This document shows positions 19,378 to 26,915 of a stretch of DNA of 36,304 nt, one piece after another. The stretch covers positions 1 through 36,304 of the forward strand of contig JAHJOQ010000094.1 in the NCBI GenBank assembly GCA_018820315.1. The letters run 5' to 3'. This DNA comes from Candidatus Zixiibacteriota bacterium. Lineage in GTDB: Bacteria > Zixibacteria > MSB-5A5 > JAABVY01 > JAHJOQ01. Positions within the stretch are counted from its first letter, which is position 1, and the number at the start of each line of letters is the position of its first letter. The position numbers and the translations under genes are program-made. The notes below the pieces were generated by a model. It was not told where the DNA came from. It saw nothing but the letters and a program-made list of their open reading frames with translations, and did no database searches.

Positions 19378-19562
19378 AATTACATTCTCCGGAGTTACGC
19401 ACAGTTACAAAGTCGTCAGAAAATATACCTTATGCGGAAAAAGTCAACATGTTGGTTGAATTCTGCGGCGGCTGGGTGTACTTTTTCTATGGATGCTGGC
19501 TTCGAATGTCATATATTGAGGTTTTCCGGGGCTGCAGCGTTGAAAGGCGATATATTGGTCTG

Positions 19563-20345
19563 ATGTCTCGTAATATATCAGAGTGGCTCAAAGGAATCAT
19601 ACTTGAGCTTCAGGAGATGTTCTTCTTTTCGGCCATAATGGTCGAAAGGATCTTCCGTCGTCCCATCTACTTGTTCGAAACCTTCGAGCAGATGCACTTC
19701 ATCGGAATAGGATCCCTCTATCTCGTCATTCTCACCGGTATGTTTGCCGGGCAGGGTATGGCGATTCAGTTCACCTACGAACTCGCGGATATGGGATCTA
19801 AGAACTACCTCGGCCGCATTATGGCAATCGCAATTATCAGGGAGCTTGGTCCGGTTCGGACCGGGCTGATGATCGCCGCAAGAGTGTCATCCGGTATTAC
19901 GGCAGAGATAGCGGCGATGGTATCGTCGAATCAGGTCGATGCTCTCAGAGCATTCGGCGTAGATCCGATCAGAAAGCTTGCGATTCCGAGACTTATCTCC
20001 CTGATGGTAATGGTGCCGATATTGACAGTAATCGCGGACGCAGTCGCACTGCTCGGTGGCTGGATGATCGCGACATTCATTGCGCATATCTCATCGACTC
20101 TCTATTGGTCAAACGTTCTCGACAGGCTCAGATTCGGTAATATTGCTATTGGATTGATAAAACCAGTAGTCTTTTCGCTCGTTATAGCCTTTATCGCGTG
20201 CTATAAGGGCTTCACCACAACAGGCGGCACCAAAGGAGTTGGGAAATCTACAACTGAAAGCGTAGTGCTCTCCTCGATCACAATTCTTCTGGTGAATTTC
20301 CTGATTACCAAGCTCGTTGTGTCATTGTTCAGAGGCTACTTATGA
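19563..20345 (+). CDS. mlaE: MlaE-like ABC transporter permease
   Basis: 260 residues from the ATG at 19563, chosen because it matches the family length; an ATG at 19449 would add an atypical 38-residue Cys/aromatic leader. The MlaE/YrbE signature is plain: 'EQMHFIGIGSLYLVILTGMF', 'IRELGPVRTGLMIAARVSSG' and 'AEIAAMVSSNQVDALRAFGV'. About five to six transmembrane helices. It forms the inner-membrane channel for phospholipid transport between inner and outer membranes. The stop overlaps the start of the ATPase gene (ATGA), so the two are translationally coupled. Confidence 0.92.
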   Translation: MSRNISEWLKGIILELQEMFFFSAIMVERIFRRPIYLFETFEQMHFIGIGSLYLVILTGMFAGQGMAIQFTYELADMGSKNYLGRIMAIAIIRELGPVRTGLMIAARVSSGITAEIAAMVSSNQVDALRAFGVDPIRKLAIPRLISLMVMVPILTVIADAVALLGGWMIATFIAHISSTLYWSNVLDRLRFGNIAIGLIKPVVFSLVIAFIACYKGFTTTGGTKGVGKSTTESVVLSSITILLVNFLITKLVVSLFRGYL

Positions 20346-21124
20346 TTGTGCTCGATGATGTTCATTTCCACATCGATGATAATCACATCATTCGTGGCGT
20401 GTCGTTGAATATCGATGAGGGTGAAACGGTTGCCGTTATCGGTCAGTCCGGATCCGGGAAGAGCACCATTCTGAAGCTCATTCTCGGTCTCCATCGTCCA
20501 TCAACCGGCAGAGTCATCATCGACGGTATTGATATCACCGACCTCAAAGAGAGGAAACTGCGCGATGTCCGAAAGCGCATGGGAATGGTCTTTCAGGATG
20601 GAGCGCTCTTCGATTCGTTGACCGTTGGCGAGAACGTCGGCTATTACCTGCTGGAACACTCCGGATTGAAGCAAGCAGATATCGAGAAAGAAGTCATCGA
20701 AATGCTTGAGTTTGTCGGTCTTGAATCCAGCATTCGGGATGGGCTCCCAGATGAACTTTCCGGCGGCATGCAGAGGCGTGTGGCTATTGCGAGAGCGCTG
20801 GTATCGACGCGACCGAAAGTGATGCTCTACGACGAACCGACGACCGGTCTCGACCCGCAAATGACATTACGCATTACGAACATTATCATGAAACTCCGCG
20901 AAACGCGAAAAGTGTCACAGATCGTGGTTACTCACCAAATTGCTGATGCGTTCAGGGTCGCTGATAGATTTATCATGATCGAGGAAGGACGAAAAATATT
21001 TGATGGTAGCGGAAAGAAGTTGCTTCGTAGTAATGATGAGAGTATAATCAATTTTCTTCAACCGTTTAACAGCGCCATAGCGAGACAGAACGAGTTGATG
21101 ATGGAGATGAATGACGAGTCATGA
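20342..21124 (+). CDS. mlaF: MlaF-like ABC transporter ATPase
   Basis: 260 residues. Walker A 'GQSGSGKST', Q-loop 'MVFQDGALFDSLTVGENV', signature 'LSGGMQRRVAIARAL', Walker B 'VMLYDEPTTGLDP' and H-loop 'VVTHQ' are all intact. 'FQDGALFDSLTV' is characteristic of the MlaF/Ttg2A group. It powers lipid movement through the MlaE permease. It overlaps mlaE at its 5' end and mlaD at its 3' end by 4 bp each, so a stoichiometric operon is expected. Confidence 0.94.
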   Translation: MIVLDDVHFHIDDNHIIRGVSLNIDEGETVAVIGQSGSGKSTILKLILGLHRPSTGRVIIDGIDITDLKERKLRDVRKRMGMVFQDGALFDSLTVGENVGYYLLEHSGLKQADIEKEVIEMLEFVGLESSIRDGLPDELSGGMQRRVAIARALVSTRPKVMLYDEPTTGLDPQMTLRITNIIMKLRETRKVSQIVVTHQIADAFRVADRFIMIEEGRKIFDGSGKKLLRSNDESIINFLQPFNSAIARQNELMMEMNDES

Positions 21125-22062
21125 AAAGAGCAGGTAAGGTCAAGTGGGGTGAACTGAAGGTCGGTATACTGATCTTCATCGGCATACTGTTTATGCTATA
21201 TGCTTCATTCAGAGGTGGTGGCACATCGATTTTCGAATCGAAGAATGACTATATCAGTTACTTCGAAGATTTGGACGGACTCGCGGTCGGTTCACCCGTC
21301 TGGCTCGCCGGTGTAGAGGTTGGGAATGTAAACAGCATAAAGTTTCTCGAAGAGCAGGTCGAACCCGGCAAGAGTATTCAGGTCAACATTCGAGTTCAAG
21401 GCGCTGTCGCCTATTTGATAACCCCCGGAAGCACAGTACAGATAGCCACGATTGGACTTCTGGGAGACAAATACGTGAGATTACTGCCCGGACCTCCTGC
21501 AGATATTCCCCTGGTGGGAGGCAGTATCATTCCAGCTTCCGGCGCCGCCGGACTGGCTGGCGCGATGGAGGGCTTGCCCGAGACGATCGATCGATTGAAC
21601 AGACTTCTGACGTCAGTCGAGAATCTGGCCGCTACAGTAGACACGGGATCCGGCACGATGGCGATGCTAATAAGAGATCCTGAACTCGCGACGAAGGTCA
21701 CGAATCTGATTGACAGATCGAGCAACCTGATGGCAACTCTCGATCGAAACGCCTCCAGCATGTCGAGGGACTTCGAATCGATCTCCAACGATTTCCATGC
21801 ACTGTCAGAAGAGTTGCTGAATGGTCAGGGTACTATGGCTCAGCTGCTCAAGGACCCGAGACCATTTGATAACATCGTATCCGCAACTGCCCGGCTTGAT
21901 ACCCTGTTGGCGAAGGTCGAATCTGGCGAAGGCACCGCGGGGCAGCTTGTCAACGATCAGGAATTGTACGACAACATCAAAGATCTGATGGCGCGGATGA
22001 ATACTCTCACCAAGGATTTGATGGACAATCCGAAGAAGTACTTCAAGTTCAGTGTATTCTAA
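21121..22062 (+). CDS. mlaD: MlaD-like MCE-domain protein
   Basis: 313 residues. One N-terminal membrane anchor (~12-30, 'KVGILIFIGILFMLYASF') is followed by a single MCE domain ~37-135 ('DLDGLAVGSPVWLAGVEVGN', 'GSTVQIATIGLLGDKYV') and a long helical C-terminal part with repeated 'LLTSVENLAATVD...GSGTMA' and 'VESGEGTAGQLVNDQELYDN' units. This is the periplasmic lipid-binding hexameric ring of the Mla system. The C-terminus is longer than E. coli MlaD (~183 aa), as in many non-proteobacterial MCE proteins that may reach further across the periplasm. Translation is coupled to mlaF (ATGA). Confidence 0.92.
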   Translation: MKRAGKVKWGELKVGILIFIGILFMLYASFRGGGTSIFESKNDYISYFEDLDGLAVGSPVWLAGVEVGNVNSIKFLEEQVEPGKSIQVNIRVQGAVAYLITPGSTVQIATIGLLGDKYVRLLPGPPADIPLVGGSIIPASGAAGLAGAMEGLPETIDRLNRLLTSVENLAATVDTGSGTMAMLIRDPELATKVTNLIDRSSNLMATLDRNASSMSRDFESISNDFHALSEELLNGQGTMAQLLKDPRPFDNIVSATARLDTLLAKVESGEGTAGQLVNDQELYDNIKDLMARMNTLTKDLMDNPKKYFKFSVF

Positions 22063-25275: not shown

Positions 25276-25956
25276 TTGACTGTGAACGAGAAAATAGACA
25301 TCGCATCATACATAGACCAGTCACTGCTCAAAGGTGACGCAACCCCAGCGCACATAGATGAACTCTGCAGTGTCTCGATTCGATATCGATTCAGGACTGT
25401 CTTTGTAAATCCTGTGCATGTGAAGCGTGCCTCAACGAATCTCAGCGGATCACAGATAGGCATCGGAAGCGTTGTAGGTTTTCCCCTCGGAGCCTCAACA
25501 GTACGGGTGAAAGTCTATGAGGCGGAGACAGTCGAGAATGATGGAGCTTCCGAAATTGACATGGTTATGAACGTCGGGGCGGCGAAGGCGGGAGAATTTC
25601 GACTCATAGAGAGAGAAATCCATGCAGTCAAGAGCGCCCTGGGGAGCAGCACTTTGCTGAAGGTGATCCTCGAATGTTCCCTGCTGGACAATGCGGAGAA
25701 GATTGGCTGCGCGCAAATTGCAGCTGACTCCGGCGCAGATTTCGTCAAAACCTCGACTGGCACTGTCGGTAGTGCAACCACCCAGGATGTTGAATTGCTA
25801 TTTAAGACTGTAGGCGGGCAGATTGGCGTCAAAGCGTCGGGTGGAATCCGCGACCTGCGGTCCGCGCTGGCAATGATTGAAGCAGGAGCATCACGTATAG
25901 GAACGTCTTCAGGAGTTCCAATCATTGATGAATATCACGATTCCCCCAGTCGATAA
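25276..25956 (+). CDS. deoC: Deoxyribose-phosphate aldolase
   Basis: 226 residues from a TTG start at 25276 (GTG at 25282 is the alternative). The product cleaves 2-deoxyribose-5-phosphate to glyceraldehyde-3-phosphate and acetaldehyde in deoxynucleoside catabolism. Active-site residues are visible: Asp95 (EIDMVMN), the Schiff-base Lys158 (DFVKTSTG) and Lys186 (GVKASGG). Other landmarks are 'GFPLGAST' and 'ILECSLLD'. The TIM-barrel length is standard. The gene stands alone, without other deo genes. Confidence 0.95.
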   Translation: MTVNEKIDIASYIDQSLLKGDATPAHIDELCSVSIRYRFRTVFVNPVHVKRASTNLSGSQIGIGSVVGFPLGASTVRVKVYEAETVENDGASEIDMVMNVGAAKAGEFRLIEREIHAVKSALGSSTLLKVILECSLLDNAEKIGCAQIAADSGADFVKTSTGTVGSATTQDVELLFKTVGGQIGVKASGGIRDLRSALAMIEAGASRIGTSSGVPIIDEYHDSPSR

Positions 25957-26056: not shown

Positions 26057-26251
26057 ATGGCAGAGAAGAACGGACAAGGACAGGGACGTGATTTTGTAGG
26101 AATCCATTTCACTTGCTGCAACGTTTATATCCGAGTATATAAGTCGAAGCAGGGTGACAGGTACGTCGGCTTCTGTCCCAAGTGCGGCAAGAAAGTGAAA
26201 CTCGTCGTCGGCTCCGACGGTGTAAACGACAGGTTCTTTACAGCCAGATGA
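26057..26251 (+). CDS. Tiny zinc-ribbon-like protein coupled to the archaemetzincin homologue
   Basis: 64 residues from the ATG at 26057. The core 'IHFTCCNVYIRVYKSKQGDR' followed by 'YVGFCPKCGKKVKL' has a CC pair and a CPKC knuckle, which together could make one zinc site. The stop overlaps the next start (ATGA at 26248-26251), so the two proteins are made together. I do not know its function; a nucleic-acid or protein-binding adaptor is possible. Confidence 0.7.
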   Translation: MAEKNGQGQGRDFVGIHFTCCNVYIRVYKSKQGDRYVGFCPKCGKKVKLVVGSDGVNDRFFTAR

Positions 26252-26790
26252 AAAGACATCGTTCGAAAATAGTTGTCGTACCACTGGGAGAGGTCGATTT
26301 CTTCCAAATTAACAAGCTGACCAGCAGCCTGTCTGCACTCTTCTCACTTCCATCCGATATTCTTCAGGGAATGAAAATCCCTAAGGAAGCTTATAATGTC
26401 ATCAGAAACCAGTATTTCTCTACGGTCATCCTTCAGAAGCTGGAGCTCCTCAAGGCAAGCCAGCGCGAAGTCATCCTGGGGCTTCTCGAAGATGATCTAT
26501 ACAGTGCAAGCACGCCGTTTATTGTCGGTGACAGCGACCGGATCGGAAGTTGCGCAGTAGTCTCGTATTTTCGAATCAGACAGGAGTTCTATGGTCTTCC
26601 AGAGGATGAGAGGCTGGTTTTCAAACGGATTCTGAAGGAATCTTCGAAGCATTTGGGTCGCATACTCGGGCTCACGCTCTGCCGCAATCCCCGCTGCGTG
26701 ATGTACTACTCTGACAACATGTTTGACATCGATCAGAAGAGCGAGAAACTCTGCGACATCTGCCAGCGAACATATTACAAAATACGTTAA
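26248..26790 (+). CDS. Archaemetzincin family protein with the catalytic zinc motif lost
   Basis: 180 residues from the ATG coupled to the previous stop, which matches the usual ~180-aa archaemetzincin length. The C-terminal half keeps the family framework: 'GLTLCRNPRCVMYYSDNMFD' with Cys145, Cys150 and Met152 (the met-turn), then Cys169/Cys172 (CDIC), which together form the structural zinc site. The catalytic HExxHxxGxxH is replaced by KHLGRILGLTL: Lys134 for His, His135 for Glu, Arg138 for His and Leu144 for the third His; only Gly141 remains. The frame is intact and the rest looks constrained, so this is a pseudo-protease rather than a decaying gene. Role unknown; perhaps peptide binding. 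Confidence 0.82.
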   Translation: MKRHRSKIVVVPLGEVDFFQINKLTSSLSALFSLPSDILQGMKIPKEAYNVIRNQYFSTVILQKLELLKASQREVILGLLEDDLYSASTPFIVGDSDRIGSCAVVSYFRIRQEFYGLPEDERLVFKRILKESSKHLGRILGLTLCRNPRCVMYYSDNMFDIDQKSEKLCDICQRTYYKIR

Positions 26791-26834: not shown

Positions 26835-26854
26835 AACAGTGTTCGCACAAATAA

Positions 26855-26882
26855 CAAAGCGCCCCGGGAAAAGGGCGCTTTG
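26855..26882. terminator. Bidirectional terminator hairpin between convergent genes
   Basis: caaagcgccc (26855-26864) and gggcgctttg (26873-26882) form a perfect 10-bp stem. The A/T ends supply short T runs on both strands. It lies between the plus-strand stop at 26790 and the minus-strand stop at 26916. Confidence 0.75.
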
Positions 26883-26915
26883 CATGCTTGCTAAGTAAAG
26901 ATCGTGGGCCGGAAA

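Follow-up and report, generated by a model that had tools for sequence, protein, structure and literature searches.

The putative zinc-ribbon and pseudo-archaemetzincin gene pair

The window, which is the whole stretch of 36,304 nucleotides analysed here (Candidatus Zixiibacteriota contig JAHJOQ010000094.1), contains a small gene for a putative zinc-ribbon protein, followed by a gene for an archaemetzincin homologue that has lost its active-site motif, hereafter the pseudo-archaemetzincin. The features of the locus are as follows.

25276–25956, + strand: deoC, deoxyribose-phosphate aldolase, upstream neighbour of the pair (NCBIfam deoC, 226 bits; conserved order)
26057–26251, + strand: gene of the 64-aa zinc-ribbon protein, CC-x18-CPxC, first of the pair (ORF, family alignment)
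26248–26251, + strand: ATGA stop/start overlap (sequence)
26248–26790, + strand: pseudo-archaemetzincin, 180 aa, active-site motif lost (Pfam PF07998, AF2 model, purifying selection)
26647–26679, + strand: degenerate zinc/catalytic motif, KHLGRILGLTL for HExxHxxGxxH (alignments)
26680–26763, + strand: kept Cys4 zinc site C145, C150, C169 and C172, with Met-turn M152 (conservation across the lineage)
26854–26883, − strand: hairpin resembling a terminator, between the pair and the gene that converges on it from downstream (consensus scan only, with 2 such hairpins observed against 0.8 expected)

Both reading frames were intact and overlapped in the ATGA, as the first-pass annotation had described, and this overlap probably couples translation of the pseudo-archaemetzincin to that of the ribbon. 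The pair and its ATGA junction recurred in the closest two relatives, with identities of 81% and 79%, whose motifs, KHVGRILGLSL and RHLGKVLGLRS, were equally dead. Because the nearest relatives repeat the pair, the junction and the dead motifs, the arrangement in the window is more than chance.

The archaemetzincin fold is retained without the catalytic motif

The 180-aa protein scored 64.4 bits with Pfam Peptidase_M54 (PF07998), whose cut-off is 24.4. In an alignment to solved archaemetzincins, KHLGRILGLTL-C fell exactly under HE[I/L]GHxxGLxH-C. The alignment agreed with the initial reading of these residues: the three His and the catalytic Glu of HExxHxxGxxH are gone, and the protein still has its four Cys and the Met of the Met-turn, as a CX4CXM...CXXC site (C145, C150, M152, C169, C172). 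An AF2 model of the protein reached a mean pLDDT of 92.6 and a pTM of 0.88. Foldseek matched it to Archaeoglobus fulgidus archaemetzincin (3zvs) with an E value of 7.6e-17 and TM scores of 0.81/0.91, and its query-normalised TM scores to solved archaemetzincins were 0.80–0.84. From this model we are confident that the full archaemetzincin fold is kept. The predicted fold, the Cys4 zinc finger-like site, the Met-turn and the length are thus common to the window's protein and the family M54 archaemetzincins AfAmzA, MkAmzA and AMZ-tk, but the window's protein differs from these in having no HExxHxxGxxH and in scoring 136 bits with the NCBIfam archaemetzincin model NF033823, just below the subfamily cut-off of 145. 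This degenerate copy is the only archaemetzincin of the window's genome (G000). With the canonical active form missing, the genome probably lacks an active protease of family M54 altogether.

Two archaemetzincin lineages in the phylum

We surveyed 132 genomes of Candidatus Zixiibacteriota, the phylum in which its closest relatives place the window's genome. Archaemetzincin homologues were present in 121 of the 132, and the motif was scored in each of the 147 copies found. A tree split them into two lineages, a canonical one (31 rows in the tree, 32 places in all) and that of the window's protein. HExxHxxGxxH was intact in 32/32 canonical copies and in all 36 of the out-of-phylum homologues inspected. 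Degenerate motifs were found in 109 of the 112 scorable copies of the window's lineage, and the three intact members (f6, f12) were basal; HEHNH was scored as intact, since its His and Glu remain. The catalytic Glu was lost in 98/112 members, the third His in 105/112 and all three His in 22/112. The four Cys were kept in every scorable member (112/112), and the Met-turn Met was lost in 72/112, though it is kept in the window's protein. Cleft motifs varied by family (KHRGL, RVASY, LQHEA, DQFDA, KIRGA) with no common set of replacement ligands, and some members had two His and an acidic residue, for example HQxxHxxDxxE. The catalytic motif has degenerated gradually and by several routes across the lineage. 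Copies without HExxH form one lineage over nearly the whole phylum rather than scattered decayed copies, and the close relatives of the window's copy have dead motifs, not the intact HExxH that the first-pass annotation had named as a sign of decay.

The degenerate lineage is under purifying selection

Close pairs across the window's lineage gave dN/dS values of 0.006–0.06 for the pseudo-archaemetzincin, and the ribbon proteins of those pairs were mostly constrained too. In the window's own family, synonymous sites were saturated and non-synonymous differences amounted to 10–14%. The dN/dS values indicate that the pseudo-archaemetzincin lineage is under strong purifying selection. Conservation was lost at cleft positions (F93, G94, E95, A96, R109, H134, E135, H138, G141, H144, M152) and newly gained at P12, P45, E47, K64, E66, K69, E74, E81, D97, N147, D160 and others. 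This move of conservation from the cleft to other positions is what would be expected for a new function.

The putative zinc-ribbon protein

The ribbon protein was conserved, as had been suspected from the single sequence. Homologues in the phylum shared invariant G15, C20, C21, Y24, C40, P41, C43 and G55, with F60 and F61 in at least 90%; the CC and CPxC were invariant in alignments across the phylum, and out-of-phylum relatives had EC for CC. No Pfam or NCBIfam family scored above its cut-off with the 64-aa protein. Its predicted ribbon has the CPxC knuckle and the beta-rich mini-domain in common with Pfam Zn_Ribbon_1 and Zn_ribbon_Nudix, but its score, 16 against 25 bits, was well below their cut-offs, and the first CxxC of that type is replaced by the CC pair. 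The structure model (pLDDT 78.7) was less certain than that of the archaemetzincin, and a fold search with it returned nothing significant (best E value 0.27).

Searches of plasmids, viral contigs and two of the three sampled outside phyla found no ribbon protein. The family occurred in 2 of the 198 genomes of one sampled outside phylum (L277:902–1114, − strand; L278:1483–1689, + strand), where the ribbon gene lies directly upstream of a gene that we judged by eye to be of the calcineurin-like phosphatase type. With a phosphatase-like neighbour outside the phylum, the ribbon is not a dedicated archaemetzincin partner everywhere, and it may be a portable partner module. Planctomycetes may carry a similar ribbon protein, on which nothing here draws. 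In genome G126 the ribbon gene (L029:913–1071) had an in-frame TGA and the archaemetzincin downstream was still open; this is possibly an early ribbon loss or a sequencing error.

Tightness of the pairing

The ribbon protein was found in 94 of the 132 phylum genomes, one of them by a weak match. Among the 93 strong ribbon genes, 91 immediately preceded, in the same orientation, a copy from the window's lineage. The exceptions were G131, in which ribbon and archaemetzincin each lie at the end of a separate contig, and G074, in which the ribbon remains beside deoC and the archaemetzincin is elsewhere. Seen from the archaemetzincin, 104 degenerate copies had 350 nt or more of sequence upstream; the ribbon directly preceded 89 of them and was absent from the other 15. 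It was beside 0/32 canonical copies. The expectation that degenerate copies are always paired thus survives as a very common pairing but fails as a universal rule. Degenerate copies without a ribbon belonged mostly to the early-branching families f4, f5, f13 and f14, with scattered losses in G056, G117, G118, G125, G127 and G091. All 8 paired loci of families f1–f3 had the −4 ATG junction; elsewhere the spacing was usually short.

Families f15/f17, which have the ribbon with HExxHxxGxxN, and f14, which has HQxxHxxGxxH and no ribbon, ruled out that losing catalysis and gaining the ribbon are strictly tied one to one. Judged from these motifs, catalytic loss and pairing are not one step but separable events. 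In distance matrices, co-divergence of ribbon and pseudo-archaemetzincin gave partial r values of 0.19 with deoC controlled and 0.28 with the helicase described below controlled, and the partial correlation of the ribbon with deoC was stronger (0.49). This co-divergence signal is weak and lacks specificity.

Gene neighbourhood

In many relatives, genes for an ECF sigma factor, an anti-sigma factor (zf-HC2), a lipoprotein, deoB, deoC, the ribbon, the pseudo-archaemetzincin and a helicase follow one another on one strand. The helicase is of the YprA/MrfA family with an MZB domain. Examples of the cluster are L041:822–7814 and most loci with 5-kb flanks (L035–L080). It brings deoxyribose catabolism together with an ECF sigma and a helicase of the repair type. 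By its gene order, the window's deoC is best read as a remnant of a conserved deoB-deoC-pair-helicase cluster.

In most families of the window's lineage, the basal intact f6 included, the helicase was the next gene downstream, on the archaemetzincin's strand, and it followed 0/32 canonical archaemetzincins; the flanks of families f12–f17 contained none. It looks the oldest neighbour, since it follows the intact, ribbon-less f6 copy and never follows a canonical archaemetzincin. In the window's genome, which is 100% complete, no YprA/MrfA-type helicase was found, only generic matches of 24% identity. The proposal of the helicase as an obligate partner is weakened accordingly. Because the window's genome has no helicase and, of the cluster, retains deoC and the pair alone, the pair has outlasted its neighbours in the window's family, and the ATGA coupling persists there and in f1–f3 despite changes in the other neighbours.

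An ABC-transporter cluster whose translations resemble mlaEFD lies a few kb upstream of the pair in the window (19449–22062, + strand). In many relatives, homologues of these genes occupy the opposite strand a few kb downstream of the pair (clusters H, J and L).

Comparison with CarG

CarG of Myxococcus xanthus is an inactive archaemetzincin that is translationally coupled to and complexed with CarD; it has lost the catalytic Glu, keeps a Cys4 site that is essential, and shows no protease activity, and the two proteins form one regulatory complex (PMC3427221, PMC8156234). The window's archaemetzincin is like CarG in the loss of the Glu, the retention of the Cys4 site and the coupling to an upstream gene. 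It differs in that CarG, with the motif HQxxHxxExxH, still has its three His and binds two zinc ions, whereas KHLGRILGLTL has lost the His as well; the f14 relatives have HQxxHxxGxxH. The partners are also different, CarD combining an RNA-polymerase-binding domain with an HMGA-like domain, and the window's partner being a 64-aa zinc ribbon. CarG-CarD is confined to myxobacteria, whereas the window's lineage is spread over most of Zixibacteria.

NCBIfam NF033824 (Myxo_non_zincin), a curated model of myxobacterial archaemetzincin-like proteins that are non-proteolytic and presumably the CarG model, gave 98.5 bits with the window's protein against a cut-off of 250, and the intact archaemetzincin L084 scored higher (122.9). 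Its cut-off was passed in 0/198 genomes of one sampled outside phylum. The phylum yielded no stand-alone CarD; PF02559 matched only ORFs of at least 588 aa there, mostly of the size of transcription-repair coupling factors. Its low score with this model, its motif and the lack of CarD ruled out the window's protein as a member of CarG. CarG is the one well-documented non-catalytic bacterial archaemetzincin that we found in the literature, reported only from myxobacteria, and nowhere in the literature searched were Zixibacteria and archaemetzincin named together.

What the pair may do

The first-pass annotation had proposed a retained, non-proteolytic two-gene unit. Motif loss across the lineage, the Cys4 site in 112/112 copies, pairing in 91/93 cases, dN/dS of 0.006–0.06 and the modelled fold all support that proposal. 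The archaemetzincin of the window's lineage is very probably a non-cutting scaffold or regulator and not an enzyme; the absence of proteolysis is read from the lost residues. We consider it fairly probable that the pair is a non-proteolytic unit whose pseudo-enzyme acts by binding rather than by cutting. In such a unit the archaemetzincin fold persists, pinned by the structural Cys4 zinc site; the catalytic cleft is stripped of its metal ligands and Glu, and another set of residues is conserved. Translational coupling would let the zinc-ribbon protein be made in step with the pseudo-archaemetzincin, and by analogy with CarG and CarD the two would most likely form a heteromeric adaptor, probably acting in a regulatory or nucleic-acid context. 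We infer both the physical complex and the nucleic-acid or transcription role; the only links to transcription are the CarG analogy and the ECF sigma/anti-sigma genes that many relatives carry some kb upstream. Against a two-protein unit we counted the 15 of 104 degenerate copies without a ribbon, the weak co-divergence and the ribbon beside a phosphatase-like gene.

Those same ribbon-less copies, together with the G074 ribbon that stayed with deoC and the out-of-phylum ribbons without an adjoining archaemetzincin, would fit two mere operon neighbours, the pseudo-archaemetzincin working alone and the ribbon having a separate job. We regard this as unlikely, since 91 of 93 ribbons adjoin the window's lineage and none a canonical copy, and the ATGA junction persists in f1–f3 despite changed neighbours. 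A little more weight, though still a small chance, goes to the pair as an accessory of a DNA-processing operon, in which it would assist the YprA/MrfA-family helicase (and deoB/deoC) in, for instance, repairing DNA or salvaging deoxynucleotides. On this view the helicase already stood beside f6, an ancestral member that is still active. The helicase follows most families of the lineage and no canonical copy, and the order from ECF sigma to helicase recurs in many loci; but the window's genome keeps the pair without a helicase, and the flanks of f12–f17 have none.

A re-engineered active site, with another metal, ligand set or hydrolytic chemistry, would leave the protein an enzyme. The fold and cleft remain in the model and members of the HQxxHxxDxxE type could still bind metal, but cleft residues differ between families with no shared replacement ligands and the Glu is lost in 98/112, which makes this improbable. 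Loss of every catalytic residue in the window's protein would also suit a decaying pseudogene whose frame is open by chance, an explanation we find scarcely credible: frames are open in more than 100 loci of the lineage, the Cys4 site is invariant, and the selection test and the lineage-specific conserved residues rule out decay.

To return to the non-proteolytic unit, its origin can be sketched only tentatively, and the sketch is plausible rather than probable. Pseudo-archaemetzincin and ribbon might form a regulatory complex that is inherited vertically throughout the phylum Zixibacteria. It would have arisen independently of CarG-CarD, on the same fold with another coupled partner, and its starting point would have been an active protease with a linked YprA/MrfA-type DNA helicase.

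Implications

Zixibacteria are a poorly known bacterial phylum, and over most of it there is a second, very probably non-catalytic, archaemetzincin lineage beside CarG. About 100 of its genes are likely annotated as zinc metalloproteases and, to judge from their motifs, almost certainly are not such. The lineage displays the whole course from an intact motif to one that is completely dead; the structural zinc site stays unchanged throughout, and the two-gene unit arises along that course. Non-cutting roles of the archaemetzincin fold are now directly testable.
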